This document shows positions 3,904-45,076 of a DNA stretch of 64,000 bases, piece after piece. Made by a program: the position numbers and the translations under genes. Numbering within the stretch: the stretch's first letter is position 1; the number at the start of each line of letters is the position of its first letter. Source of the stretch: a virus. The notes below the pieces were generated by a model. The model saw only the letters and a list, made by a program, of their open reading frames with translations, was not told where the DNA came from and ran no database searches. The stretch is taken from the IMG/VR virus record IMGVR_UViG_3300044701_004608, positions 1 to 64,000 of that record. The stretch is one strand, 5' to 3'.

Positions 3904-4845
3904 ATGACACAACCTTTGAAACTTCGTTGGGTACTTGCGCATATACCTTACGATCTTTTCCTTCGTTCTGCCAATGCTTTTGCTCGTGCTGTTAAAGAAA
4001 AAACTAACGGTGCGATCGAAATCGAAGTATTAGGTAAGAAAGAATGGGAACAGCAATACAATAATGGTAAAGAAGTTGGCAACTTTGGTTTTCTGAAACT
4101 GTTGTCGAGCGGAGCCATTGAAATGAGCCAGACATATTCCACAGTACTGGGTCATGTAAATAAAGACTTTTTCGTACTTGACATGCCTTTCTTGTTTGAG
4201 AACCATGAGCACGCCGCTCGCGTTCTTGATGGCGAAGTTGGTCAGCAGTTGATGAGCAGCCTAGCTGAGACATCGGGCACACGTGGCCTGGCATTTACAT
4301 ACTCAGGTGGTTATAAGATGATGGCCGTTAACAAGCGTGCCGAAAGCATCAATGACCTGAAAGGCCAGACACTACGTTGTGGCAACAGCCCTGTTTCTAA
4401 AGCTACATTCGAAGCCATCGGTGCTAATCCTTTCCCCAAAGGTGTTGACGGATTCGCTGATTCTGTTACAGCAGGCGAGTGCGAAGGCGGCGAGAACGTG
4501 TTCCCACGTTACTTCCGTAGCAATGTAAACAAGGTAACAAATACTGTCGCTAATACCGAGCATGCTTTGTTCCTGACAAGCATCATCATCAGTGAAAAAG
4601 TTTGGAACCAGCTCACAACTGAGCAGCAAGAGATCCTGCGTGAGTGCGCCGAGATCGCTGCCAAGGAAGAGCGCCACGAGAGCCTAGTAGACGGTGCTGC
4701 TGCTGTTGAGCGTTGCGCCCAAGAAGGTATCGAAGTCATTGAGTGGAGCGAAGAAGCTATCGCTGAATTCAAGGCTGCTGTACAACCTGTTTACGAGCAG
4801 TTCGAGGAATATGCTGATATTGTAGCTAAGATCAAGAATGCCTAA
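3904..4845 (+). CDS. TRAP-transporter solute-binding protein (DctP family), no signal peptide
   Basis: 313 residues. The family binds C4-dicarboxylates or other organic acids in the periplasm for TRAP (DctPQM) transporters. Seen here: LKLRWVLAH near residue 5, FARAVKEKTNGAIEIEV (about 26-43), FLFENHEHA (about 98-107), and the central MAVNKRAESINDLKGQTLRC block (about 140-160) with the GANPFPKG and GGENVF region that follows, all in family order; length is typical for the mature protein. Oddity: the protein starts directly at the mature part, with no Sec signal or membrane segment, so as encoded it would stay in the cytoplasm or virion. AGGAG precedes the ATG and a late promoter lies at 3853. 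No DctQ/DctM is nearby. Confidence 0.85.
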   Translation: MTQPLKLRWVLAHIPYDLFLRSANAFARAVKEKTNGAIEIEVLGKKEWEQQYNNGKEVGNFGFLKLLSSGAIEMSQTYSTVLGHVNKDFFVLDMPFLFENHEHAARVLDGEVGQQLMSSLAETSGTRGLAFTYSGGYKMMAVNKRAESINDLKGQTLRCGNSPVSKATFEAIGANPFPKGVDGFADSVTAGECEGGENVFPRYFRSNVNKVTNTVANTEHALFLTSIIISEKVWNQLTTEQQEILRECAEIAAKEERHESLVDGAAAVERCAQEGIEVIEWSEEAIAEFKAAVQPVYEQFEEYADIVAKIKNA

Positions 4846-4863
4846 TTAGGTTTTGAGATCATG

Positions 4864-4890
4864 AAAAAGCCCGCCTAAGCGGGCTTTTTT
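4864..4890. terminator. Bidirectional rho-independent terminator
   Basis: AAAAAGCCCGC-CTAA-GCGGGCTTTTT; A-run on one side and T-run on the other, between the converging DctP-like gene and tctC. Serves both strands. Confidence 0.9.
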
Positions 4891-4902
4891 ATTGGCTACG
4901 GT

Positions 4903-5760
4903 TTACTTCTTTTTCCAGTAATGATTGTAGACGTTATCGACATGCTCTCTCACTGAGTTCACGTCTTTGCCTGCGATGCTCTTAGACTTGGTATCAGCGA
5001 AACCGTTCTGCTCGATAGATGCCAAGAAGTCTTTGTCTTGTCCGGCCGCTTCTACTGCTTTCTTCACACCACCGTTGCCATTGGTATGGATCATCTGGAT
5101 GATCGGTAATGTAGGTACCTTCATGCCCTTGAATGTATTGCCGATGAACTTAGGAGAACGTGGGTCATAATCATACACACATTCGATCTCCCCACGCTTC
5201 TCAGGTTCGTTCACTACGCCTGCGCCAATGATGCCGTAGTCGATGTCACCGGCTAACACAGCGGCCAACACGGTCTTGGAACCGGAATAAGGCACACCAC
5301 GTAATTTACGTTTGCCACCATTGAGGTCTTCGAACAGTCCGTCACTGAGGATCACTGAAGCGATGCCTACCGTAGTAGGTTCATCGCCGAACCCTTTCTT
5401 GTTCCCGGGCTTCCGGCAGAACTTGAGATAGCTCTTGGTGATCAGCGTGGTGTTGTTAGGTGTAGCACTGAACTCACAAGACACATCTTTGTTCTTGGCA
5501 GCGATAGCCACGTCTGCGTTGTAGACCATGACAGCATTCTTGGTGCTTTTATATTTGGAGTCAGCGTCGGCGCACGAACTGGCTTGATAGAACTCTACGT
5601 CGTATTTTCCGTTTTTGCGCAAAGCGTCTTCGTAGCTTTTAGCGAACACAGTGGCCGGGCTCGCTTTGTTGCTGGGGTTGATCACCGTGATGGTCTCTTT
5701 CGCATGGGCCAGAGAAGCGACAGTGATCATTGCCACAGCGAGGATGGTTTTCTTGAACAT
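4903..5760 (-). CDS. tctC: Tripartite tricarboxylate transporter solute-binding protein (TctC/Bug family)
   Basis: 285 residues. N-terminal Sec signal (MFKKTILAVAMITVASLAHA, cut after AHA) directs it to the periplasm, where the family binds carboxylates and hands them to TctAB. After the signal, ETITVINPSNKASPATVFAK corresponds to the start of the mature lobe; GVPYSGSKTVLAAVLAGDIDYGIIG (about residues 155-180) matches the ligand-site region. Three or more Cys residues suggest disulfides. It lies 11 nt after tctA in the same transcript. Such proteins are hugely expanded in Burkholderiales, which hints at the donor. The small TctB subunit is not present nearby. Confidence 0.85.
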   Translation of the reverse strand: MFKKTILAVAMITVASLAHAKETITVINPSNKASPATVFAKSYEDALRKNGKYDVEFYQASSCADADSKYKSTKNAVMVYNADVAIAAKNKDVSCEFSATPNNTTLITKSYLKFCRKPGNKKGFGDEPTTVGIASVILSDGLFEDLNGGKRKLRGVPYSGSKTVLAAVLAGDIDYGIIGAGVVNEPEKRGEIECVYDYDPRSPKFIGNTFKGMKVPTLPIIQMIHTNGNGGVKKAVEAAGQDKDFLASIEQNGFADTKSKSIAGKDVNSVREHVDNVYNHYWKKK

Positions 5761-5771
5761 CGGGGTTCCTT

Positions 5772-7079
5772 TTAGTAAAAATATATATTGTAGAATTGTA
5801 GCACGGTCCAGATGAGTCTGTCACCGAACATTATACCAAAGATAAGCAATATGGGATTCGCTTTAAAGTATTTAAGTACGGTCCCTATCACGGTGAAAAA
5901 AACCAATAACGATACATAGATCAGTAAAGTGGTCTCGTTGAAATACATATCTGCCACGACCATTGCGGAGATGATCGCGAATAACAACCATTTGCTCTTT
6001 CCGTACAGCCTTTTGACCACGGAAACATAGATATCGATGAACTTCGTGCTGAGCAAAAAGTAAAAGACAGTAGCTAACATCGCTGTCGCTATCACGGTAT
6101 CAAACACAGTCAATCCAGAAAAATAATGACTGCTTTGTGCGGCCAGTGTAGGTATATCTACGTTTTTGATATCCATCACGTTGCTGATGATCAATGCCGA
6201 AGCGGTGATAGGCAGACCCATCACGAAGAACGGTAAGAACATCATGACCACCCCGGGGTTGTTCGCTGTCTCGGCGGCCACTACTTGTTGGAACACACCT
6301 TGCCGTCTATGGGCATGATATGCGGCCGCTGACGCTGTTTCTGCCGCAGGCCCAGGCACGCTACCAGCGAAAAGTCCTATGACCGTGCTTTTGATTATAG
6401 TCCACCAGGTGCGGTCATCGCTGGCACTGGCTTGATAATGTGTCGGTGCCTTGCCGTCTGCGTGTAAACGATCGAAGATCAGATCTGGTATGATCATTAG
6501 CCCTGCGACTAAAAGGAAGAACGAAGTGTTTTCGAACAACTGTTGTATCTGATACCACCAAGTCGGCAAGGCATAGTTATTAGTTGGTCCTAACGCTATG
6601 CCCACTAACAATAAGAACAATGCTATCAAAGGACGACGATCCGTGGCCGCGAATAACGAAACCACTATCAAGAATATCGCTAGTGTGAAGTTGACGCTGG
6701 CCAAGACATGGCTCATCCCCGACAGCCAATGATACGCTGACCATACTACTGCTAATGCCACCACTCCTGCGAAAAGACTACCTTTAGCAGTCTGATACAG
6801 CAAACGGTTGCGTTCTTCTAGCGTCATTGACTTCAAGTCATTGATGTATACTAGACTAGATGCTTCGCCCGGTATGCCGAGCGTGATGGTGCTCACTGAA
6901 CCAAAGAACTGGCTACCGATCGCGGCAGTAGCCCAGAACACCAACAAGAGCTCTGGGGGCCAGAAACTATGTAGGGCATACACTAAGAAGCCAGCGAAAT
7001 ATATCGGAAAGACAGAAAACAATCCCAGCAGGATACCAACGAGTAGCCCTAGTAGTACAACCGATATAACTGAAATCAA
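5772..7079 (-). CDS. tctA: Tripartite tricarboxylate transporter permease (TctA family)
   Basis: 435 residues with about ten hydrophobic segments; inner-membrane channel subunit of the TctABC secondary carboxylate transporter, driven by ion gradients. Family marks: GSVSTITLGIPGEASS in the N-terminal half (about 56-72) and GSVPGPAAETASAAAYHAHR (about 236-256), the repeated Gly/Pro-rich TctA motifs. Slightly shorter than the usual 490-500 residues, but begins and ends inside hydrophobic segments without visible damage. Followed by tctC; preceded 2 nt away by an alpha/beta hydrolase. No tctB is visible. Confidence 0.85.
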   Translation of the reverse strand: MISVISVVLLGLLVGILLGLFSVFPIYFAGFLVYALHSFWPPELLLVFWATAAIGSQFFGSVSTITLGIPGEASSLVYINDLKSMTLEERNRLLYQTAKGSLFAGVVALAVVWSAYHWLSGMSHVLASVNFTLAIFLIVVSLFAATDRRPLIALFLLLVGIALGPTNNYALPTWWYQIQQLFENTSFFLLVAGLMIIPDLIFDRLHADGKAPTHYQASASDDRTWWTIIKSTVIGLFAGSVPGPAAETASAAAYHAHRRQGVFQQVVAAETANNPGVVMMFLPFFVMGLPITASALIISNVMDIKNVDIPTLAAQSSHYFSGLTVFDTVIATAMLATVFYFLLSTKFIDIYVSVVKRLYGKSKWLLFAIISAMVVADMYFNETTLLIYVSLLVFFTVIGTVLKYFKANPILLIFGIMFGDRLIWTVLQFYNIYFY

Positions 7080-8035: not shown

Positions 8036-8043
8036 AAAGATAA

Positions 8044-8376
8044 GGCCCGGTTCTTTGGGTGATAAGGAAGAACCGGAAAAAGACCTCAGCTATGCCTTAA
8101 GCGGCGATAGCGAATGAACTGTCGTTTGCAGTTACTTGTTTTGCTTCTTCGGCCAGGAAACCCCAACCCTACGGTTTTCACATTACCGCGCTGTCCACTC
8201 CGCTACTCCTTGCCCTGTCGAAACCAGGTCCGGCCCATCAGAAGAAAACTTAGAACCTTTCACAGTGGCAACCATTTCTGGTTATGCCCGGGCCGCGGAC
8301 CCGCTAAATTTTCTTTTGGTGGACCGGGCGGGAATCGAACCCGCGTCCAGAACACATTTTGCTTCGCTTCATACAG
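8044..8376 (-). ncRNA. ssrA: Permuted two-piece tmRNA (ssrA), tag ANDSSFAIAA
   Basis: On the minus strand the acceptor part comes first: T-arm GCGGG-TTCGATT-CCCGC and an acceptor strand ending CCGGTCC-A-CCA (3' end at 8317, CCA encoded). After an 80-nt spacer the coding piece starts at 8236 with GGGCCGG, which can pair with CCGGTCC (7 bp, one G-U), then ACCTGGTTTCGAC, the conserved tmRNA 5' motif. The tag frame 8129-8097 reads GCA AAC GAC AGT TCA TTC GCT ATC GCC GCT TAA. This is the circularly permuted layout known in alphaproteobacteria, some cyanobacteria and some betaproteobacteria. A hairpin (8048-8076) closes the 3' end. It would rescue stalled ribosomes and tag products for Clp proteolysis. 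Confidence 0.92.
8048..8076 (-). terminator. Hairpin at tmRNA 3' end
   Basis: CCGGTTCTT/AAGAACCGG around an 11-nt loop, directly after the coding piece and followed by GGCCTTATCTTT. Probably the 3' end or processing structure of the tmRNA precursor. Confidence 0.6.
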
Positions 8377-8390
8377 CGATACTATTATTT

Positions 8391-8425
8391 ATTATACACC
8401 CATCGGTCCGAAAGTCAACTGACTT
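8391..8425 (-). promoter_or_regulatory. Sigma70-like promoter of ssrA, TTGACT-N16-TATAAT
   Basis: -10 TATAAT with a TG extension (about 8391-8396) and TTGACT 16 nt upstream, overlapping the stop of the gene at 8415-9236. Lets the tmRNA be made independently of upstream genes. Confidence 0.7.
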
Positions 8426-9236
8426 TGGGTAGTTTGCCCGTACAGATCAAGTTGCTGGCGATGTAGCCAACGATACCTGACAGCATCAATGAAGCAGTCT
8501 GTGGGCTCAACCAAGCATATGGTGTCTTGATAACTGCTTGACTCATAACAAACGTGATAGCGGCGATGAGATCATCTTTGTGCTTTTCACCTACACCTTT
8601 TCTAACATCGGGAATGTGCCAGATCATATCAACCAAGAATGATGAGCAAGCATTACATTGAGTCATGACCACTGTGCGGGTCAGCGCACCTTTGGCCATA
8701 GCAGTAGCAGTTGCGGCGCACATTGGTGCGAACATGGCAGTGGTTTCACCTTCGGTGGCTGGGTTGTTTAGGCTTGCGGCAAAGGCACCAGTGATGGCGC
8801 TACTGACGCCGATCAGGCATGCGTTTTCAGCAAGGTATTCGCCCATGTCAACTAAACTGTCGCCAACCATGACAGCACCATCTTCGATCGCACTACCAGC
8901 GGTTTTCAATCCGGCGACGAATTCATCACTGGCATAGTTGGCTTTCTTGGCAGCATCGTTGTAGGTGTCAACAGCGGCTTGCTCAGCAGGCTTCAGCACC
9001 GTCTTGGTGATGTCGTTGATGGCCTTGGTGCTTTCCTTGGCGATCTGGTCTGCGGTCTTGTTGAGCGTCTTGGCGCAATCATTGACCACATCCTCTACTG
9101 TGTCCGTGGCATCTGTGAACGCTTTGCCTATGTCCTTGCCAGCATCTACCACTGCGTTGCCTACATCCTTGGCCCCATCGGTGATGGACTTGCCTACCTT
9201 TTTCCAACTCTTTTTGCTGAACGGATTGAATCCCAT
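8415..9236 (-). CDS. Amphipathic helical protein with hydrophobic C-terminal half, 273 aa
   Basis: N-terminal half is a run of 11-residue-like amphipathic repeats (KSITDGAKDVGNAVVDAGKD and similar up to about residue 110), resembling LEA-type or apolipoprotein-like helices. The C-terminal half holds two or three hydrophobic segments and five Cys residues. It starts MGFNPFSKKSWKKVGK after AAGGAA. A membrane-binding or virion-ejected role is possible; no family recognised. Confidence 0.7.
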   Translation of the reverse strand: MGFNPFSKKSWKKVGKSITDGAKDVGNAVVDAGKDIGKAFTDATDTVEDVVNDCAKTLNKTADQIAKESTKAINDITKTVLKPAEQAAVDTYNDAAKKANYASDEFVAGLKTAGSAIEDGAVMVGDSLVDMGEYLAENACLIGVSSAITGAFAASLNNPATEGETTAMFAPMCAATATAMAKGALTRTVVMTQCNACSSFLVDMIWHIPDVRKGVGEKHKDDLIAAITFVMSQAVIKTPYAWLSPQTASLMLSGIVGYIASNLICTGKLPKVS

Positions 9237-9648: not shown

Positions 9649-11160
9649 CTAATTTCGGATGATGTAATCAAAAGCACCTAAAGCGGCATTAGCGCCCGAA
9701 CCCATGGAAATGATGATTTGCTTATACGGAACATTGGTACAATCTCCCGCGGCAAAAACACCTTCCATAGTAGTAGCGCCGTGTCCGTCGGTGATGATCT
9801 CACCGTAGCGAGTGCGATCCACTGCACCTTCCAACCAGTCAGTGTTGGGTACTAAACCGATCTGTACAAACACACCTTCTAAGGCCAAGTGCTGTTGGGT
9901 ATCAGTGTCACGTTCCACATAAGTGATACCCGTCACACGTTCGTCACCTTTGATCTCTCGGACTTGTACATTGGTGCGGACAGTGACATTAGGCAGACTC
10001 TTGAGTCGATCCTGTAGTACAGCGTCGGCCTTGAGTTTGGGCATAAATTCAAACACAGTGACATGACCTACGATACCTGCTAGGTCGATGGCTGCTTCTA
10101 CACCGGAATTACCACCACCTATGACAGCAACATGCTTGCCCTTGAATAGTGGTCCATCACAGTGTGGGCAGTAGGCCACGCCGCGATTCTTAAACTCCTC
10201 TTCGCCGGGAACGCCTAGGTTACGCCAGCGGGCACCAGTAGCGATGATCACTGTCTTTGATTTTAGCGTAGCACCTGATTCTAGTTCCACCTTGATCTGG
10301 CCGTTCTTCTCGATCTTTTTGGCACGCTGTAGGTTGAACACATCTACGTCGTACTCTTTGACATGCTCTTCTAACTGTGCCACGAGTTTAGGACCTTCTG
10401 TGTACTTGGTACCAATGAGGTTTTCGATGCCCATGGTGTCCATGACCTGTCCGCCAAAGCGTTCAGCTACGATGGCAGTACGGATGCCTTTGCGAGCCGC
10501 ATATACAGCAGCCGATGCTCCAGCAGGGCCACCACCTACTACAAGCACATCATATTCACGACCGTCGATGTCTGAAACATCTGCGGCTGATCCCAACTTG
10601 GCCAGGATCTCTTCGATGGTCATGCGGCCTGATCTAAACGATTCACCGTTGAGCCATACACTAGGCACAGCCATGATGTTGCGGTTGGTGGCTTCTTCTT
10701 GGAAAGCCGCACCGTCGATCATAGTATGAGTGATGCCAGGGTTCAGCACAGCCATGGTATTGAGTGCCTGGACTACATCGGGGCAGTTATGGCAAGTGAG
10801 ACTGATGTAAGTCTCGAAACGATACTCGCCACGCAGGGCTTTGATCTGTTCGATGACTTTGTCGTCGATCTTGGGTTTACGTCCGCTGACTTGTAACAAG
10901 GCCAAGATCAAACTAGTGAACTCGTGTCCAGTGGGCACACCTGCGAATGTGATGCGGTCTCCCACACGGAAACTAGGGGTGCGAGGCAGTTGGCCTGGCT
11001 CGATGGTGATCAAGTCTGTCATACCTGCGATCTCATGTAAGAGATCTAACATGGCTTGGCTAGTCTCGTCTAAGCCGGCACGCACCGTGATGGCAACAGG
11101 ACCCTCGAGCAGTTTGAGATACTGCTCGAGTTGGCTACGGATAGTCTGGTCCAATAGCAT
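9649..11160 (-). CDS. ahpF: Alkyl hydroperoxide reductase subunit F
   Basis: 503 residues, near the E. coli AhpF length (521). N-terminal double-thioredoxin domain with TCHNC (Cys123/Cys126); FAD site VGGGPAG (about 208-214); redox CPHC (Cys331/Cys334); NAD(P)H site VIGGGNSG (about 346-353). It passes electrons from NADH through FAD and two disulfide centres to AhpC. All key residues are present, so it should be active in the cytoplasm. It starts 2 nt after the ahpC stop, and the pair is expressed from the dual promoter at 11807-11835. Confidence 0.95.
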
Positions 11161-11162
11161 AA

Positions 11163-11726
11163 TTAGATCTTACCTACGAGGTCAAGACTTGGTGTCAATG
11201 TTGCGGCACCTTCTTTCCACTTAGCAGGGCAGACTTGACCTGGGTTAGCGGCTGTGTATTGTGCGGCCTTTAGTTTACGTAGAGTTTCCTGTACGTCACG
11301 AGCGATCTCGTTTGAGTGTACTTCGGCTGTCTTGACGATACCGTCTGGGTTCACGACGAATGTGCCGCGGAGTGCGAGACCTTCGCTGTCGATGTGTACA
11401 CCAAAACCACGTGTCATTGTATGTGTGGGATCGCCTACGAGAGGAAACTTGGCCTTGCCAACAGCAGGCGATGTTTCGTGCCATACTTTGTGGCTGAAGT
11501 GTGTGTCAGTTGTGACGATGTAGACTTCGGCACCCATCTTCTGGAACTCGGCATAGTTATCAGCGGCGTCTTCGATCTCTGTTGGGCAGTTAAATGTAAA
11601 TGCCGCAGGCATGAAAATGAACACATTCCACTTGCCTTTGATCGACTCGCTAGAGACTTCCACGAACTTGCCATTATGGTAGGCTTGTGTTTTAAACTCG
11701 GGTACTGCTTGATTAATAATAGACAT
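11163..11726 (-). CDS. ahpC: Alkyl hydroperoxide reductase subunit C (2-Cys peroxiredoxin)
   Basis: 187 residues, same size as the E. coli enzyme. Peroxidatic Cys47 lies in [11 protein letters not shown], resolving Cys166 in GQVCPAKW; reduces H2O2, organic hydroperoxides and peroxynitrite, then is recycled by AhpF, encoded next. [10 protein letters not shown] and [16 protein letters not shown] match the family core. One of few complete bacterial-type antioxidant systems expected on a phage. Upstream are both a sigma70-like promoter and a perfect T4-type late promoter, suggesting expression throughout infection. Confidence 0.95.
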
Positions 11727-20385: not shown

Positions 20386-20988
20386 TTATTTCAGTGCGAC
20401 TTCCGTGTAGTCGTAGTTGGCCATATGGCCCCAGCTCTGGGATATACGCTTTTCGCTGTCGTCTGCGTCCAATATCACACGCAATAGACGTGCTCCGTTT
20501 GAGATATGGAAACGTGCCACGGGATCTCGCTTGTTTTCCAGGAATTCACGCAAGCCAATGACATCAGGGCATTCGTCAAAGTTTTCACGAAGCGTGGGGA
20601 TAGGACTCATAGTAGTGAAATGCCGGATATCGGGATATTTTTCGCGTATGATCTCTGCGGCTTCTAACACCAAGTCAGCACCGATATTTTTGGTAGAAGA
20701 TTCCACGTCTGTGCGGAACACAGAATAGAAGATAGCGTGTGTGGCCTGCTCGATGGGCACGATGTCAGAGCCGATGTCTAAGATATCGCTGATCTTGTCG
20801 GGCAAGCCACGAGTATATGCTACGCAGAGCACAGCGATAGGTAGTCGGTTTTCTGTGCGGAAGAAGATCTCTCGATCTTCTTTGGTCCTGCGTTTTACAG
20901 GTCGATCTTCACTGATCCCGTGGACTGGGTCCTGATGTAGATACTCTAAATAAGAGTCTGCTCCGGGGAATAAGTGATTCACTATCAT
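20386..20988 (-). CDS. Malonyl-CoA decarboxylase-like catalytic domain
   Basis: 200 residues. Blocks in family order: [20 protein letters not shown] (about 49-68), [10 protein letters not shown] (82-91), [16 protein letters not shown] (117-132), [13 protein letters not shown] (159-171) and [12 protein letters not shown] (183-194). These match the C-terminal GNAT-like domain of malonyl-CoA decarboxylase (HxxNGA and SxGxMxNYxY are its hallmarks, including the catalytic His). The N-terminal helical domain of the cellular enzyme (about 460 residues total) is missing. It could convert malonyl-CoA to acetyl-CoA or act on another acyl-CoA. Overlaps clpP by 4 nt. Confidence 0.75.
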
Positions 20989-21581
20989 ACTTCTCTTTTC
21001 TCGATGATCTTGTCGATTAGACCGTAGGCCAAGGCTTCCTCGGCGGTCATGAAGTTGTCGCGTTCCATGTCGGGTACAAACTCTTCGTAGGTCTTGCCGA
21101 TGCTGTTGTGCTTGACATAGAGTCCGGTCAGGAAACGCTTCATGCGCATGATCTCTTCGACCTGGATCAGCATGTCAGTGGCTTGTCCACGAGCACCACC
21201 CAAGGGTTGGTGGATCATGTGTCGAGCATGCGGTAACATGAGTCGCTTGCCGGGTGCGCCAGCAGTGGCCAGCAATGAACCCATGGAGCAAGCCTGGCCC
21301 ATCACGATGGTCGACACGTCGGGCTTGATGAACTGCATGGTATCATAGATGGCCATGCCGTCGGTGATGCTCCCGCCCGGGCTGTTGATATAGAACAGGA
21401 TGTCAGAATCGGGGTCTTCGGCCTCCAGGAACAACATCTGGGCTACCAGTAGCGATGCTGAGTGTTCGTTGACATCCGTGTCTAGGATGATAATCCGCTC
21501 TTTGAGCAAGCGGCTGTAGATGTCATAGGCACGTTCGCCGTTTGAGGTCTTTTCTAATACAGTTGGTACAAAGTTTGGCAT
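20985..21581 (-). CDS. clpP: ATP-dependent Clp protease proteolytic subunit (ClpP, first copy)
   Basis: 198 residues, normal ClpP length. Catalytic Ser in [10 protein letters not shown], His in HMIHQPLGG and Asp in MERDNFM are all present, as are [12 protein letters not shown] and the handle helix. Forms tetradecameric chambers fed by ClpX or ClpA. Second of two ClpP homologues here; the radical SAM gene lies between them. Its start overlaps the radical SAM stop by 28 nt, indicating tight co-expression. Confidence 0.95.
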
Positions 21582-22693
21582 TTTTCACCCATCCGTTGAT
21601 ATAATTCAGGAAATGTCTCAGGGAAACTCTGATCCCTGTGTTTGTCTAGTATTTTAACATAACGCATCAATATGTCAAGCCTATCACTGTGATCATCGGC
21701 CCACATGGCATCCAAAATAGGCAATAGAGCCGGGTCTCGACAACGCTCAGTGATGGCCTGTTTGGCTTCCTCAGGCAATACCGTTATGGAATATTGCTCG
21801 GGTCGGGACACCAATCCGAGGTAAGGATCGGGCAGGCCTTCCCGCCTACACCATTCTATGAACTCAGGTAGGTGCCAGATGGTGAAAACGCTGACGCTGT
21901 GGCTTATGGATATCTGTAGGTTAGGCAACACCGAACGGAGTCCATCATTGAAGTACTTGACGTTCATGTAGACTTCTTCCCAGTTCGCGGGCCAACGATT
22001 GTATTCGAACACACCATAGATGCCATCGATGCTGATCTGGAGATCCACTTTCTTGAACTGGCTCCAGCGTTCCAATAGTTCGGCACAGGGCATCTGTGTA
22101 CCATTGGTGATATAATGTAAGCTGACTTCTGATGCTCCATGACCGATGATATGATCCAAGAAGTCGATATGCTGTTCTTTGCCGGCTAGGAAAGGCTCGC
22201 CACCAGGAAACTCTATGTGCTTGACCTTCTCTAGTAAGGCTTTGATGTGCCGCATGAAGTGGTCGTCACGGTAGTAGCGTTGGTGACCGTAGATCTTGAT
22301 CTCGGGAAAGTTTGCGGCCAGCTTGCGGCTTTCTTGTCCCCACTTGCTGGAAGCATGGCTACCACATATTCGGCAGGCTAGATTACAGGTGTTGCCAAAA
22401 GGCAAGCTGATCACCGCGAGATAGTCATGATCAGGTTCCTGCTCTTGGAAAACATACTGCCAGTCCAGTTGTCGCTTGCTGGGCAGGCCGGAATCTTCAT
22501 CTCGCCAGCAACGAGCACAACCTGCGGGCCGTTCACCTCGTTCAAAGGCCTGCTTGAGTTCTTCAAGCTCGTTGCTGGCGAAATAGCCTTGTAGGTCGTG
22601 TGCTATAGGGTGGGAGTATTTACAGCAGGGTTTGAAATCGCCTTGCGGACTGATGTCAAGCCCCACCCAGGGGTGGTGGCATAGTGACATCAC
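21554..22693 (-). CDS. Radical SAM protein (twitch/SPASM-like)
   Basis: 379 residues. Radical SAM cluster CNLACRIC (CxxxCxxC, about residue 106) with FGNT before it; PGGEPF corresponds to the GGEP SAM-binding motif and ITNGT to a following strand. An N-terminal Cys-rich part ([23 protein letters not shown]) looks like an auxiliary Fe-S site, usually found at the C-terminus in SPASM/twitch enzymes. Proteins of this architecture occur in many large marine phages; the substrate is unknown. Sits between two clpP genes. Confidence 0.85.
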
Positions 22694-23271
22694 TTCTTTA
22701 CGCGACGTTTGTGGACTTCGGCGACATGATCGCAGAGTCCGAGTTTGAGTGCTTCTTGGGCACTAAGATAGACATCATGCGGTGGTAACAAATGTTTGCG
22801 GATGTTTTCGTCAGAAAGGTTGGTACACACACGATAGTGATTGAGCATGCGCTCTTGTGTGAGTTCATACTCTTTGACCACTGCGAACAGTTCGTGCTCT
22901 TTGCCCGATGTGCCCCAGGAGAACTGGTGACTTAGGATCGAAGTGTTCGGGGTGAGCACCCGGCGACCAGCCGTGCCAGCCAGGAATATCAGCAATCCGC
23001 ATGAAGCGATACAACCTAATCCCACGGTCTTGATAGGGATGGTGCTGGCGTTCATGACGTCGATGAGCGCGAACCCATCCACTACCGAACCACCGTCCGA
23101 ACAGATCATCAGGATCAGTTCTTTCTTTTTGGTCTTCTGGACATGATTCTCGATCAAGATCCATTCGATCACGGGTTTGACATTCTCTTCGTTGATGTCT
23201 CCCATGAGGACGAAAATACCTGCGTCCTGTGTGCTTAACTCCGGGGTATCGTTGTAATTTTCTTGTGGCAT
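22690..23271 (-). CDS. ClpP-like protease subunit (second copy)
   Basis: 193 residues. ICSDGGSVVDGFALIDVM replaces NSPGG, GCIASCGLLIF holds the likely nucleophilic Ser, SHQFSWG the His, and HDVYLSAQEAL a candidate Asp. More divergent than the copy at 20985. May form mixed rings with it, or a separate protease. Driven by a promoter nested in the terminator hairpin at 23287-23349. Confidence 0.85.
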   Translation of the reverse strand: MPQENYNDTPELSTQDAGIFVLMGDINEENVKPVIEWILIENHVQKTKKKELILMICSDGGSVVDGFALIDVMNASTIPIKTVGLGCIASCGLLIFLAGTAGRRVLTPNTSILSHQFSWGTSGKEHELFAVVKEYELTQERMLNHYRVCTNLSDENIRKHLLPPHDVYLSAQEALKLGLCDHVAEVHKRRVKK

Positions 23272-34300: not shown

Positions 34301-36355
34301 TTACTTCTCGTGCGCGATGAACTCACCGTTCCAGTTATTAGGTAAGTTCTGCTCCTTCATGAACTCGCAACGTTCGATCCAGATCTTGTAATACTTGTCC
34401 ATCTGTCCACCGAACGAACCTTTCATCTTCTTACACATGGCTGCGGTCTCATCGAACTTTTTCTGTTTATATAAGGCATGCATCTTTTCATGTTGCTCTC
34501 GATCTTTGGTCCAATCTTCTCCGTTAGGACGTAAGGCTGTGTAGATCAAGTCTGCTACAGTCTTGCCTTTTGGCTGTAAGTTGTCTAGCATCAAGTAGAA
34601 GAAGTCGTCTTTAGTACGGTTGTATGTCTCGGCACCAATGATACACAATACGCCATATGCTTTACAACGTGCTTCTAGACGTGCGGCGGTTGAAACCATG
34701 TCGCCTAAGATGTCGTAACTGTGTCTATCAGTCGATCCCATCTCGCCGATAAAGCCAATACCAGTGTTACAACCCCAACCCATTGCGGCTGGTGGTAAAC
34801 CTTGTGCTTCCATTTCTTTAGTGTAGGCATCTACAGCATCTAACATCTGTAAGCCAACGGCAACGATCGTGCGAGCATGGTTAGGATCTTCGATCGGAGC
34901 ACCATGAATGTGCATACTCGCGTCACCTACATACTTGATGACCATGCCTTTGTTGTCCATGATAGGACGACTGATGGCATCCATGTAGCCGTTCATGTAT
35001 TTGCCGAGGCCAGCGACGTCATCACCATAGTGTTCACCAATGGGAGTGAAGCCACGCAGGTCTGAGAACATCACCGACACATCTTTGCGCACACCACGCT
35101 TGATCAAGTCGGGATCTTTCTGTAGCATCTCTACCACTTCTTTGCTACAGTATCCTGCGAACTGTTTTTTTATGGCTTGCTTCTGTAAGAACTCACTTAC
35201 AAACTTAACACCATAGGTGTGAAGAGCAACAAGCAAAAGACCAACAGTAGGTGCCGTCGCGTCGATGAGCACGTTTCGTGTAGTAAACATCCACCAAGAA
35301 CAAACAGCATAGGCAACGAGCCCAAGAATAGTTGTTGCGATACCGACATAAGTCCACCTCGATATTATTATTATTGTCAGAGATAGTGCCAGGAAAGCAG
35401 CCAGCTCAGCCATGTCGGCCCAGCCAGGTCGTTGAATATGGACGTTGTTAAACATCGTGCCGATCACAGCGGCTTGCACAGTTTGTGGCCACACGGATCC
35501 CTGTGCTGTGGCAACAGGGTTAGATAGGCCGGCGGCAGCGGTGCCCACGATCACTACAGCGCCACCTAGGTCTTGCGGTAGTTCAGTGAGCCCAACCGAT
35601 TTTGAAGTCTGGCTCCAGTCTATCCATATACGACCTAAGTCGTCTGTAGGTATGACGCCAAACTTGGGAATACGCATCTTCTCTACACCTAGCTCGTTGA
35701 GCTTGGCTTGGAAGTTGGGGTCACCAGCAATGACTCTCAGCACTTCCATAGAGAGTGCGGGATATACTTGATAGCCGGCTTTGTCGGGGACCGATACTAA
35801 TAACGGCATGCGGCGTGTGACGCCATCCACTTCAGGGAATGTGGTAGTGAGTCCCACACCCACGGCAGAGTTTTCCAGTCGTGGTATGTTGGCTATGATG
35901 CCGTCTACTGTGGGCAGTCGATCAGCGAACTGTGCGCCGATGATAGCGGCGCCAGGACTGCGTGGTTCGTTCTTGCCTTTAGGTGCTGCCACGTTGGGCA
36001 ATATCACTGGCAGTTCTCGCATGGCCTGTGACAGACGAGCATCGCCGCCGGAACGATCCGCCTCGGGCATCAAGACATTGAACACCACCAAGCCAGCACC
36101 GCGCTTGTAAAGGTCTTCGATGATGTTGGCGTAGATCTGACGAGGGAATGGCCATTGGCCATAACGCTCTAGCGCGGCTTCGTCGATGTTGACGGTGTAG
36201 ATATTGTTTTCTGTGGGAGTCTTGCTGGTGATCAGCGTGTCGAAGTATCTGAGTTTTATGCTTTCTACAAAGACAGGATTGGCGAGTATTGTAATTGCTA
36301 GAAAGACAACAGTGACCAGTGCCCACAGTGGGCTGAGTGCTATTTTTTTGAACAT
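34301..36355 (-). CDS. CHASE2-sensor adenylate/guanylate cyclase (class III)
   Basis: 684 residues from the ATG at 36355. N-terminal TM, CHASE2 extracytoplasmic domain (about 25-300: RYFDTLITSKTPTEN, GQWPFPRQIYANIIEDL, IDWSQTSK), three TM helices (about 320-400), then a class III cyclase domain: VMFSDLRGFT (metal Asp), KYVGDASMHIHGAP (Lys and second metal Asp), GIGFIGEMGSTDRHSY, LGDMVSTAARLEA. The Asn usual in GDxVNxAARLE is Ser; the Arg remains. It would make cAMP or cGMP in response to an outside signal. CTAAATA lies 4 nt before the ATG and no SD is seen. Confidence 0.85.
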   Translation of the reverse strand: MFKKIALSPLWALVTVVFLAITILANPVFVESIKLRYFDTLITSKTPTENNIYTVNIDEAALERYGQWPFPRQIYANIIEDLYKRGAGLVVFNVLMPEADRSGGDARLSQAMRELPVILPNVAAPKGKNEPRSPGAAIIGAQFADRLPTVDGIIANIPRLENSAVGVGLTTTFPEVDGVTRRMPLLVSVPDKAGYQVYPALSMEVLRVIAGDPNFQAKLNELGVEKMRIPKFGVIPTDDLGRIWIDWSQTSKSVGLTELPQDLGGAVVIVGTAAAGLSNPVATAQGSVWPQTVQAAVIGTMFNNVHIQRPGWADMAELAAFLALSLTIIIISRWTYVGIATTILGLVAYAVCSWWMFTTRNVLIDATAPTVGLLLVALHTYGVKFVSEFLQKQAIKKQFAGYCSKEVVEMLQKDPDLIKRGVRKDVSVMFSDLRGFTPIGEHYGDDVAGLGKYMNGYMDAISRPIMDNKGMVIKYVGDASMHIHGAPIEDPNHARTIVAVGLQMLDAVDAYTKEMEAQGLPPAAMGWGCNTGIGFIGEMGSTDRHSYDILGDMVSTAARLEARCKAYGVLCIIGAETYNRTKDDFFYLMLDNLQPKGKTVADLIYTALRPNGEDWTKDREQHEKMHALYKQKKFDETAAMCKKMKGSFGGQMDKYYKIWIERCEFMKEQNLPNNWNGEFIAHEK

Positions 36356-36359
36356 CAAG

Positions 36360-36366
36360 TATTTAG
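36360..36366 (-). promoter_or_regulatory. Late-promoter-like CTAAATA abutting the cyclase start
   Basis: CTAAATAC then 3-4 nt and ATG, so a late transcript would begin at or very near the start codon. The rest of 36367-36464 holds no gene. Confidence 0.5.
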
Positions 36367-36464
36367 TGGTGCTCACTTCCGGGGTCCACGGTAGCGAATC
36401 GCTTTCCCCGCGCCAGCAGCCGGCGCACACTACGGTAACTTAATACCGGTCCTAAGGTGTGTCC

Positions 36465-37172
36465 TTATGGGGTCTTGACTCGAGCAAGACCCACGATCTC
36501 TAGCATCCTGATATACATCCAGCCTATGTCAAACTCCCACCACTTGTCGCTTAGTTTCGCCGAAGCAGGGCTCTTATGGTGGTTATTGTGTAGTTCTTCG
36601 CCGCCGACGATGATGCCAAACGGTGCGATGTTAGTGGACCGATCACCAGTCTCATGATTCCTATATCCTATGAAATGTGCCAATCCATTGATGACGCCAG
36701 CGGCCCAGAAGGGTATCCAAGCCATCTGTACCAACCACATCACTATGCCCCAGCCATGGAACAAGTATGTCTCTAGGACCAGCAGGGCAGTGATGCCCCA
36801 CTTGCTGTGGCTGCTGTAGATGTTGCGTTCCACCCAGTCATCGGGCGTGCCCACACCATAGGCTTCGACCATGGCCGAGTTCTTGCTGGCATCGTTGTAG
36901 AGCCACGCACCGCCAAACAGCACACGCCAGATACCGTAGACATGTGGTGAATGTGGATCACCTTCGCCTTCGGTGAAGCGATGATGCTTGCGATGTATGG
37001 CCACCCATTGCCGAGTGACCATACCTGTGGTCAGCCACAACCAGAATCGCATAGCGTGGCTGACTACTGGGTGTAGTTCTACTGCGCGGTGTGCCTGGCT
37101 CCTGTGTAGGTAGATGGTCACACACGCGATGGTGATGTGTGTCATCACCAATACTAAAATAAGTTCTGTCAT
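36465..37172 (-). CDS. Membrane fatty-acid desaturase (acyl-CoA/acyl-lipid delta-9 type)
   Basis: 235 residues. Three His boxes: HRSQAHRA (HxxxxH), HRKHHRF (HxxHH), ELHNNHHKSP (HxxHH), which bind the di-iron centre; membrane segments lie around them. Shorter than cellular enzymes (about 300-380), with the N-terminal TM region trimmed but the catalytic core complete. It would introduce a double bond into host fatty acids and alter membrane fluidity. Starts 1 nt after the stop of 37174-37815. Confidence 0.9.
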   Translation of the reverse strand: MTELILVLVMTHITIACVTIYLHRSQAHRAVELHPVVSHAMRFWLWLTTGMVTRQWVAIHRKHHRFTEGEGDPHSPHVYGIWRVLFGGAWLYNDASKNSAMVEAYGVGTPDDWVERNIYSSHSKWGITALLVLETYLFHGWGIVMWLVQMAWIPFWAAGVINGLAHFIGYRNHETGDRSTNIAPFGIIVGGEELHNNHHKSPASAKLSDKWWEFDIGWMYIRMLEIVGLARVKTP

Positions 37173-41713: not shown

Positions 41714-42759
41714 CGGTTCCACTGCCTTATGGTTATCTTGGTAGACCCATCGCCGGTGACCCGTGTATGTAGGTCGTTGTCGTTGATGGATATGCTGTAA
41801 GTGACATTGTCTTGTAGTTCGCCCGACTTCACTGAGATAGTGTTGCCTTTTTCGGGATCGTGACGCCAGTAATAGTTGCGACCTTTTTCGTTGCCGCATT
41901 CGTTGAATGGGTAACAGTTGTCGTTCCGGCTGGATTCGTTGCTTTTATTCTCGGCACTGGCATCTACCAATAACTTCGTAGAGGACTCATCCGATTTCGC
42001 TTTCTGATCCCGGGCCGATTTCTTATCTTCATCCTCTCGGGCTTGTTCTTTCTCGCGATCTTTTTCTTTAAGTTGTTCATCAATACCATCGGGCTTGACC
42101 AAGTTCATGTCGTTGTTGATCAAAGCTATGTCGGGAATGACCGCTACCGGTGGTAGTGGCGCGGCATCTGAAGAAGCTACATATGTGGCCGTGAACGCTT
42201 GGTTCAAGCTCACCATGCCTGCGGCCGTTTCCACATCGATCTGGCCCACTGTACAGTTGTCAGCGATGCGATAGTTGTTAGTATTACGAGGATCTTCACA
42301 GCTGGGCAATAAAACGACCACAGAGCGTCCTGCTTCATCCACGGTCATGGAGAAGTCAGTGCCGCGCACAGCGATGGTGGCCGTGGGTGTCTTGAGGTTC
42401 ACTGCCTGTCGGTTGGTCTTGGCTATCTGGCCCGAAGTGTATTTCACTGTGCCTAGTGCCACTTTCATGGCCAGTTTGCCAGCATCGCTGGCCTTAGGGT
42501 CAAACACGAAATCGTCGATGACCAATCGACTGTTGGCTGTTATCTTTACCTTTGTGTTGTCTTGGAAAGTCAACCCGGCTTCAGTGGCCGATCCCACTAC
42601 TACGAGATCGTTGCTTTCGATGCCGGACTGTTTTGTTATCTGTGATGTAGCAGAACCGCGTTTGACGCTCGCGTTGGCACCTTTGAGTTCAGTTACCGAG
42701 CCTATAGAAGCCCATGAACTCACAGATGCCAACAGTAATAACGAGCATATCCAACGCAT
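41710..42759 (-). CDS. FecR-domain exported protein
   Basis: 349 residues. Signal MRWICSLLLLASVSSWASIG, FecR domain (about 25-140: GSATSQITKQSGIESNDLVV, LTFQDNTKVKITANSRLVID, NLKTPTATIAVRGTDFSMTV), then an Asp/Glu/Lys-rich helix (KEKDREKEQAREDEDKKSAR) and a C-terminal beta part. FecR-domain proteins without a TM are often secreted surface proteins next to CsgG/curlin genes. Overlaps curlin and adhesin genes by 1-4 nt. Confidence 0.8.
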   Translation of the reverse strand: MRWICSLLLLASVSSWASIGSVTELKGANASVKRGSATSQITKQSGIESNDLVVVGSATEAGLTFQDNTKVKITANSRLVIDDFVFDPKASDAGKLAMKVALGTVKYTSGQIAKTNRQAVNLKTPTATIAVRGTDFSMTVDEAGRSVVVLLPSCEDPRNTNNYRIADNCTVGQIDVETAAGMVSLNQAFTATYVASSDAAPLPPVAVIPDIALINNDMNLVKPDGIDEQLKEKDREKEQAREDEDKKSARDQKAKSDESSTKLLVDASAENKSNESSRNDNCYPFNECGNEKGRNYYWRHDPEKGNTISVKSGELQDNVTYSISINDNDLHTRVTGDGSTKITIRQWNR

Positions 42760-43424
42760 TAGTTTCCAGTGATCACTGTCACTGTGTTCGAGTTACCGTT
42801 AGTGTTGATGCTGACGATAGTATCAATGCTTCCCGACTGTGTGACGGAATGCGTATTAGAAGTTCCTGTGACTGCGGCTGTCAATGTATGGCCACCACCT
42901 GCTGATGTGCCCGACATTGTATGTGTGAACTGGTTGCTGTCGCCCAGGATGGTGATCGAGGCTGAACTGTTGTCAGTCTGGATGTCCTGAGATACTGTGT
43001 TGCTGTTGCCAGTGATGCTAAGGCTGTTAGTGATGGCAGAACCTTTGATGGTCTGTGTCACTGTGTTGCTGTCGCCTTGTATAGTTGTAGTGCTTGTCAC
43101 TCCTGTACATGCAGTAGTTCCGTCACCGCAAGTCATGGTGATGGCGTTAGTGTCGCCAGTCACTGACTTAGTGATAGTGTTGCCAGAACCTGTGACAGCG
43201 TAAGCCAGCGTGTTTGAATCGCCGGTTTGTGTCACGGTCATTGAGTTGTTGCTGCCAGTGATGGTAGCGTCAACGCTGGAAGTACCCACAGAGTTGAGCG
43301 TACCAACTTGTGTTATGCTGATGGTGTTACTGCCACCAACCTGCTCGATATACACTGAGTTTCCTGCATGGGCCACGGTGAATGACATCGCCACCGCTAA
43401 ACCTATCAGTGTTCTTTTAAACAT
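42759..43424 (-). CDS. Curlin-type amyloid subunit (CsgA/CsgB-like)
   Basis: 221 residues. Signal MFKRTLIGLAVAMSFTVAHA, then about nine imperfect 20-23-residue repeats with N-x-(I/V)-x-(I/V)-x-Q/T: GNSVYIEQVGGSNTISITQV, NNSMTVTQTGDSNTLAYAVT, DSNTVTQTIKGSAITNSLSI, NSNTVSQDIQ, TSNTHSVTQSGSI. This Asn/Gln/Ser ladder builds the curli beta-solenoid. Directly upstream of the fecR-like gene and downstream of csgG. Confidence 0.85.
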   Translation of the reverse strand: MFKRTLIGLAVAMSFTVAHAGNSVYIEQVGGSNTISITQVGTLNSVGTSSVDATITGSNNSMTVTQTGDSNTLAYAVTGSGNTITKSVTGDTNAITMTCGDGTTACTGVTSTTTIQGDSNTVTQTIKGSAITNSLSITGNSNTVSQDIQTDNSSASITILGDSNQFTHTMSGTSAGGGHTLTAAVTGTSNTHSVTQSGSIDTIVSINTNGNSNTVTVITGN

Positions 43425-43466
43425 GCTTTATCAGAGGCGTTAAACCTCCGCTCCTTCATTTTATGT

Positions 43467-44618
43467 TCAATCGTCTAAACGACTGAATCTGCTTTTATGT
43501 ACCCAACCGGTATTGCCGCTATATTCGACGAATACCCAGTCTCGTTTCTTTTCTAGGACCACGACACGCGACCCGGGTTCAAGCCTTGTTGTCTTTTCAC
43601 TGTCCGTGATAGGCTGGCTCCGCAGGTTAGACCAATCTTTGATCTCACCTGTTTTTTTGATGGGCACAGCTTTCTGTTGAGGTACTACTTTTTCAGTTGT
43701 GGGTGAGGGCGGAGTTTCTTTTTCAATTTTCTTTTCTGTTACTGGAGAAGCCGCAGGAGCGGGTGCTACTTTGACTTCTTCTTTTTTTGGTTCAACCTTG
43801 GGTGTTTCTGTCAATGGTGTAGCCACGACCACTGGTTTACGATACTGCCAATGTCCTTTTTTCTCGCCTTGCTTGATCATCTCGATCACGGCGGCGTGGA
43901 TGGCTAGTTGTACTGCGCTGTTCATGCTTTCGTTGCTGGCGGCACCAGTTTCAAGTTCCAGTGCTTTAGTGCCAAGATCATAGAAGCGTAGCACGCCCAT
44001 CTTGTCTTGGAACGACACTACGGTTTTCTTGATCGTGACTGCTGTGAGAACTTCACCGCTGGCCACAGAAACAGCACGGAGACTAATCACGATCTCGTCC
44101 TGGCGATATTCTGTGCTGGCCCCGATGCCTAATAATCTAGCGCCCGAGCCACCACTGATCACGTTGCTGTCATAACCTACGATACCACCTTCAAGTATCA
44201 GTCCTGCGAACACCATAGGAGGCAATGCCTGTGCGTCCTTGCCTTGATAGAGTTCGCGCATCTGGCGTATGAGCTGGCGTTCCTTGACGATGTTGTCTAG
44301 GCCGCCACGCTCGACTACTTTAAACCAACTGCCGTTGCCTACTTCCTGTAAGCTACGGATGAGATAGTTGTCAGCACCTTGTGTCACAGCCGAGCTCAAT
44401 GATGCTAGAGTCTGGCTGGCTTTGCGTTGACCTGTTAAGTCACGGAAACTGTAGACGGCCACGGTGATAGCACCACCTTGTGGTGGTAACAGTTGTTCTT
44501 GGTTCAATAATACTGGTTGTGTGGCTTCAGGTTGATCGATGGTACGAACTTGTTTAGAAATCGTAGAGCATCCAGCCAACATGGATATCACTGCGAGTGC
44601 TAGGATAGTCTTCTTCAT
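43467..44618 (-). CDS. csgG: CsgG-like curli secretion channel with C-terminal SH3 domain
   Basis: 383 residues. Lipobox SMLAGCST; CsgG domain to about residue 250 (VAVYSFRDLTGQRKASQTLA, SSAVTQGADNYLIRSL, FKVVERGGLDNIVKERQLIR, GLILEGGIVGYDSN, ISLRAVSVASGEVLTAVTIK). The outer-membrane nonamer exports curlins. Then a Pro/Lys/Glu linker (about 260-325) and an SH3-like domain (NLRSQPITDSEKTTRLEPGS, WVFVEYSGNTGWVHKSRF), absent from E. coli CsgG (277 aa) and likely able to bind cell wall. ATG overlaps csgF stop by 4 nt. Confidence 0.9.
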   Translation of the reverse strand: MKKTILALAVISMLAGCSTISKQVRTIDQPEATQPVLLNQEQLLPPQGGAITVAVYSFRDLTGQRKASQTLASLSSAVTQGADNYLIRSLQEVGNGSWFKVVERGGLDNIVKERQLIRQMRELYQGKDAQALPPMVFAGLILEGGIVGYDSNVISGGSGARLLGIGASTEYRQDEIVISLRAVSVASGEVLTAVTIKKTVVSFQDKMGVLRFYDLGTKALELETGAASNESMNSAVQLAIHAAVIEMIKQGEKKGHWQYRKPVVVATPLTETPKVEPKKEEVKVAPAPAASPVTEKKIEKETPPSPTTEKVVPQQKAVPIKKTGEIKDWSNLRSQPITDSEKTTRLEPGSRVVVLEKKRDWVFVEYSGNTGWVHKSRFSRLDD

Positions 44619-45076
44619 GGCGCGATCCATCCAAAGTCACCGATGGGCACAGACACGGTAGTGACATTACCATTGTTGTCTGTGATAGTCATGGTGATGG
44701 TCTGTCCATCACTGGTGTAACTGATAGATCCGCCATTGAAACTGAAAGAACCATTGACTTGTGTGCCTTGGCCTTCGAATAGTTTTTCTGTGATCTGGCG
44801 TGCGAGTTCGTTGTAGACGCGGCTTTCCAAGTTGGCAATGAATCGTGCCATAGTGGTGTTTTTGGCGTCTTGCTCGGCTTTCAAGTCAGCGGCTTTCTTC
44901 TCGGCTGCGATAGCGAGTTTGCGGCTGAGTTCTTGATTATAGATAGTCAGGACATGGCTCGAGTAGCCGATGCCAGAAAATGCGGGTGAGTTAAATTGAT
45001 GTACTAATTCACTTGCTACTATACTGCTCGATATCACACAGCTCACGACCGCTATTGTAATTTTTTTTGCGATCAT
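44615..45076 (-). CDS. csgF: CsgF-like curli assembly factor
   Basis: 153 residues. Signal to about residue 22, then SELVHQFNSPAFSGIGYSSH, the CsgF N-terminal segment that plugs the CsgG pore (LVYTPVNPSFGG in E. coli), FIANLESRVYNELARQITEK and a C-terminal VNGSFSFNGGSISYTSDGQT with ITITD-like strands. First gene of the curli transcript. Its SD AGGAG lies in the arm of the hairpin at 45078-45110, with a late promoter in the loop. Confidence 0.85.
   Translation of the reverse strand: MIAKKITIAVVSCVISSSIVASELVHQFNSPAFSGIGYSSHVLTIYNQELSRKLAIAAEKKAADLKAEQDAKNTTMARFIANLESRVYNELARQITEKLFEGQGTQVNGSFSFNGGSISYTSDGQTITMTITDNNGNVTTVSVPIGDFGWIAP

Follow-up and report, generated by a model that had tools for sequence, protein, structure and literature searches.

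A complete circularly permuted tmRNA gene, very probably functional, in a virus contig

A complete circularly permuted tmRNA gene lies at about 8384 to 8041, on the minus strand, of the window, which is the whole stretch of 64,000 nucleotides analysed here (positions 1 to 64,000 of IMG/VR record IMGVR_UViG_3300044701_004608, a virus contig of 111,782 bases). Judged from its sequence, this phage ssrA gene has the rarer permuted (two-piece) form and is very probably functional. Scanning the whole window with cmscan at Rfam gathering thresholds yields two matches, both at this locus and both spanning the entire model. RF04321 tmRNA_permuted is found at 8378 to 8097 on the minus strand (122.9 bits, E 1.6e-23, model positions 1 to 213 of 213; cut-off 47 bits), and RF01850 beta_tmRNA at 8432 to 8041 on the minus strand (111.7 bits, E 3.7e-33, model positions 1 to 331 of 331; cut-off 84 bits). 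These matches are far beyond chance, and the best within the clan is RF01850, the beta type. ARAGORN also calls a permuted tmRNA (tmRNA*) at 8409 to 8006, minus strand, with the tag ANDSSFAIAA. An initial annotation, which gave no strand, had proposed a phage-encoded circularly permuted tmRNA with this tag and a covariance search with permuted models as a check; the covariance models, the tag, the acceptor pairing, the promoter and the phage flanks all agree with that proposal. The gene and its surroundings comprise the following features.

8317 to 8384, minus strand: acceptor (3' tRNA-like) piece, with T-arm GGACGCGGGTTCGATTCCCGC, acceptor strand CCGGTCC, discriminator A and encoded CCA
8237 to 8316, minus strand: spacer of 80 nt between the pieces, presumably removed on maturation
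8041 to 8236, minus strand: coding (mRNA-like) piece, with 5' acceptor strand GGGCCGG, the TGGTTTCGAC motif, the tag frame and a 3' hairpin
8047 to 8076, minus strand: hairpin at the 3' end of the coding piece, 9 bp, perfect, CCGGTTCTT/AAGAACCGG
8097 to 8129, minus strand: tag reading frame, GCA AAC GAC AGT TCA TTC GCT ATC GCC GCT TAA, read as ANDSSFAIAA and stop
8391 to 8418, minus strand: sigma70-type promoter, TTGACT-16-TATAAT, 11 of 12 consensus positions
8415 to 9236, minus strand: upstream ORF, 273 aa, function not assigned, with a 74% identical relative in viral contig L009
7082 to 8035, minus strand: downstream ORF, 317 aa, starting 6 nt past the end of the tmRNA model match
3904 to 7079: cassette of DctP (plus strand), TctC-like (minus strand) and TctA (minus strand) genes, with the same arrangement in viral contig L115

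The order of the parts, with the acceptor piece ahead of the spacer and the coding piece last, is that of the permuted form. The 5' end of the acceptor piece, near 8384, is placed from the position of the promoter, while the last base of the CCA falls at 8317 and the first base of the coding piece at 8236, so that the spacer had been correctly located at about 8237 to 8316. Pairing of GGGCCGG with CCGGTCC, also proposed earlier, holds at all seven positions and includes G3:U70; the acceptor strand is followed by ACCA, the discriminator A plus CCA. G3:U70 is the alanine identity pair and is read by alanyl-tRNA synthetase. The ends of the spacer prolong the acceptor stem, giving arms at 8230 to 8253 and 8304 to 8327 (24 nt, 83% complementary). 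The tag frame closes with a stop codon after a hydrophobic-Ala-Ala end, and a tag that starts A-N-D and ends I-A-A fits ordinary ClpXP-type degradation. The minimum-energy fold of the whole gene is not striking relative to shuffled sequences (z of -1.48), under a fold model that holds neither pseudoknots nor a two-piece structure.

The promoter directly upstream, which bears out the claim that the gene has its own, is the best among 12 promoter-like sites in 5.5 kb. The stretch that contains it aligns with the conserved 5' part of the RF01850 model, and its -35 hexamer shares bases with the upstream ORF at the stop end of that frame. The tmRNA gene thus fills the gap between two co-directional ORFs (8415 and 8035) almost exactly. 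The downstream ORF has no family match and no relatives among the viral contigs. Contig L009, the source of the relative of the upstream ORF, also has a permuted tmRNA, which lies elsewhere (144.7 bits, tag ANDNVYSEDLRLAA), and L115 also has a ClpP and an ORF that reads as DNA-ligase-like. The position of the tmRNA is not conserved, as in relative G002 it lies beside other genes.

The initial annotation had raised the concern that this piece of the contig might be host DNA. The evidence points to phage DNA on both sides, and a host origin is unlikely, because phage-conserved genes lie to either side of the locus, G+C is even (47% in the first 12 kb, 48% in the remainder) and the contig fragment yielded no integrase. 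Beyond the window the contig encodes a tail-fibre-like protein, the large subunit of ribonucleotide reductase, a replicative helicase resembling DnaB, and a UvsW-like helicase with its best phage relatives (50 to 55% identity) in jumbo phages, for example Sinorhizobium phage Phosso. At its far end are 25 tRNA genes. Comparison with plasmids gave no match. Host-like genes do lie nearby (AhpC/AhpF, TctA and DctP), and tmRNA genes are common integration sites (PMC11915505), which could favor an assembly chimera with host DNA, or a host ssrA gene that was picked up at an attachment site when a prophage excised imprecisely and that the phage does not use. Either origin is very unlikely. No part of the gene is missing, and it sits tightly between two co-directional ORFs, one of which has a phage relative at 74% identity; this arrangement is unlike that of a residual attachment site. 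The 550 bases around it showed no repeat of the end of the tmRNA, and the TctA/TctC/DctP cassette turns up in further viral contigs. On the phage-conserved neighbors, the even G+C and the missing integrase, host DNA or a chimera was rejected as the source.

Permuted tmRNAs are found in many other phages. Searching a phage collection with the tmRNA gene by blastn retrieves only Stenotrophomonas and Xanthomonas phages, over 15 to 16% of the query (the acceptor piece) at 78 to 86% identity. All four examined with ARAGORN and Rfam (the Marzo/Mendera group, DLP6, QDWS359 and Rb1) have a permuted tmRNA, scoring 103 to 137 bits with RF04321. A pattern scan of viral contigs adds 20 further loci, every one permuted by ARAGORN, and Melnitz, Pelagibacter phage HTVC008M and Phosso each carry one as well. 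The acceptor stem is paired at 7 of 7 positions, with G3:U70, in the window and at 24 other loci, four of them from the plain-blastn phage records; the search pattern imposed G3:U70 on the 20 viral contigs, and the four phage records have the pair without that constraint. The three acceptor pairs left free in the pattern show 2, 3 and 4 pair types with zero mismatches across 25 loci (window included), and this variation is real covariation. Tags end in [LIM]AA at 27 of 28 permuted loci from phages and viral contigs. The tmRNA of the window is a divergent copy, at most 76% identical to any sequence compared; it is not firmly placed in the tree, and other viral contigs score up to 182.9 bits with RF01850 as against its 111.7.

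Several of these loci have features of their own. Two viral contigs (L022, 4248 to 4674, and L025, 2795 to 3221) encode a permuted tmRNA whose tag, ANADTFDFTAMSFTGNTVANDSRFALAA, is unusually long at 28 aa and looks as though a second tag start had been inserted ahead of an ordinary tag. The tag of L014 is ANDEKFALAA, the odd one given by ARAGORN being in the wrong frame. The permuted match of Phosso (349596 to 350198), which ARAGORN did not detect, extends over about 600 bases, suggesting a spacer of unusual length. The permuted tmRNA of Stenotrophomonas phage QDWS359 (2993 to 3571) is unannotated and overlaps a 'hypothetical protein' on the opposite strand that is probably spurious.

The gene of the window adds an example to an already published class of phage permuted tmRNAs. 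For instance, a two-piece tmRNA has been described in the Methylophilales (OM43) phage Melnitz, in a survey that counted 53 unique two-piece forms in phages, most of them marine or aquatic (PMC9004378). Another count gives 79 unique bacteriophage tmRNA sequences, with the permuted models merged into RF04321 (PMC11915505), and a tmRNA is listed in the Sinorhizobium jumbo phage AP-J-162 (PMC11242549). Melnitz, a T4-like myophage (PMC9004378), resembles the phage of the window in its permuted, phage-borne tmRNA and in its CsgG/CsgF curli genes (CsgG 48% identical). However, its tmRNA is alphaproteobacterial-like and has a glutamine riboswitch (PMC9004378), whereas that of the window is of the beta type with a sigma70-type promoter, and no riboswitch is found in the contig at gathering thresholds; the tags also differ (ANDNYVPVDYALAA in Melnitz, ANDSSFAIAA here). 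The Stenotrophomonas and Xanthomonas phage tmRNAs are likewise permuted, with three of four tags ending in IAA, but they group apart from the window in the tree, where support around the window is open. They usually lie among tRNA genes, and most either lack an annotation or have one that does not name the form. The one-piece tmRNAs of the mycobacteriophage Bxz1 group and Bacillus phage G are also phage-carried with a tag frame, but they are not listed as permuted (PMC4131195). RF01850 itself describes the permuted tmRNA of Betaproteobacteria, which the window matches over its full length and above the cut-off.

These comparisons bear on the proposal that the two-piece form marks the host lineage, which is not supported. 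Stenotrophomonas and Xanthomonas are gammaproteobacteria that probably have one-piece tmRNA genes, and their phages have permuted tmRNAs that match RF01850 and/or RF04321. Melnitz shows a mismatch too, with a tmRNA of alphaproteobacterial type in a phage of a beta/gammaproteobacterial host (PMC9004378). Since form and affinity do not fix the host in these cases, the form of a phage tmRNA is not a reliable guide to it, and the claim of host lineage is weak. AhpF was also considered as a host marker; its best matches among the genomes listed are Firmicutes (68 to 74% identity), which do not fit a beta-type tmRNA, and no host was read from it.

How the gene would work can be proposed from its parts, and here we infer transcription, processing, charging, activity and benefit. 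Host RNA polymerase would transcribe the tmRNA from the sigma70-type promoter, and the precursor would fold with its acceptor strands paired and that stem lengthened by the ends of the spacer. RNase P would then cleave ahead of G8236, and 3'-processing would bare the encoded CCA at 8317, leaving two RNAs joined by the acceptor stem. Host alanyl-tRNA synthetase would charge the molecule with alanine through G3:U70. During infection it could rescue, together with host SmpB, ribosomes that have stalled on mRNAs that are broken or lack a stop codon, adding the tag A+ANDSSFAIAA, whose hydrophobic-Ala-Ala end should send the product to host ClpXP-type proteases. The benefit to the phage is probably that ribosomes are kept free while host and phage mRNAs are cut.

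A phage trans-translation system had also been proposed, and this stands only in part: the RNA comes from the phage, whose 111.8-kb fragment yielded no SmpB. A search for PF01668 gave no match in the 111,782 bases, nor in 17 other viral contigs compared, so no self-contained system with a phage SmpB is seen in this contig, which may be incomplete. As no SmpB was found in the fragment, the tmRNA would depend on the host, probably for SmpB, alanyl-tRNA synthetase and RNase P alike. An integrase or SmpB could lie beyond the limits of the fragment.

Other roles can be imagined for the same RNA. It might inhibit host trans-translation or serve as a decoy for it, for instance through titration of SmpB, and the tag-less tmRNA-like RNA of mycobacteriophage DS6A provides a precedent (PMC4131195, PMC11915505). 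This is extremely unlikely here, given that the window retains the tag frame, the stop codon and G3:U70, and that the [LIM]AA end, which a decoy would not need, is kept at 27 of 28 loci. The presence of two Clp-protease-family genes in the same phage (20985 to 21581 and 22690 to 23271) raises the idea of a private tag-and-degrade module, which is most improbable. ClpP does not follow the tmRNA: among 14 other records, all seven without a permuted tmRNA have ClpP, and six of the seven with one lack it. In addition, the contig yielded no ClpX-type AAA_2 gene, and phage members of the ClpP family are often annotated as head maturation proteases. A dedicated ClpP–tmRNA module was therefore rejected. 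It is also unlikely, if somewhat less so, that the phage tmRNA displaces that of the host in infection and that its tag reroutes rescued products, for instance to phage ClpP or away from host adaptors; if true, the phage would take over ribosome rescue and protein turnover. Rescue of stalled ribosomes with host SmpB is the reading preferred here.

The phage carries a number of other genes worth recording. The two ClpP-family genes lie either side of a radical SAM gene (20985 to 23271), and ClpP is frequent in the large-phage relatives examined, with or without a tmRNA. In the 3904 to 7079 cassette, DctP is a TRAP-type protein without an evident signal peptide (by eye), accompanied by the TctC-like protein and the TctA membrane protein. 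Relatives of TctA (67 to 68%) occur in three viral contigs (L114, L116 and L117), and the three genes are possible auxiliary transport genes. Adjacent AhpF-like and AhpC-like peroxide-defence genes are found at 9649 to 11726. A 709-aa protein with CHASE2 and adenylate/guanylate cyclase domains (34301 to 36430) is unexpected in a phage and could make a cyclic nucleotide signal in infection; it is followed at 36465 to 37172 by a fatty acid desaturase family protein (PF00487). At 42759 to 45076 are a curlin-repeat protein, CsgG with an extra C-terminal SH3 domain, and CsgF, which are also present in Melnitz and Pelagibacter phage HTVC008M.

The gene described here is a well-preserved addition to the phages that carry their own ribosome-rescue RNA, and the beta-type permuted tmRNA is spread across many different phages. 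Caution is needed in inferring a host from the form of a phage tmRNA. If the proposed activity is true, it would favor the view that large phages maintain productive ribosomes while mRNA decays, using a tmRNA of their own and SmpB borrowed from the host.
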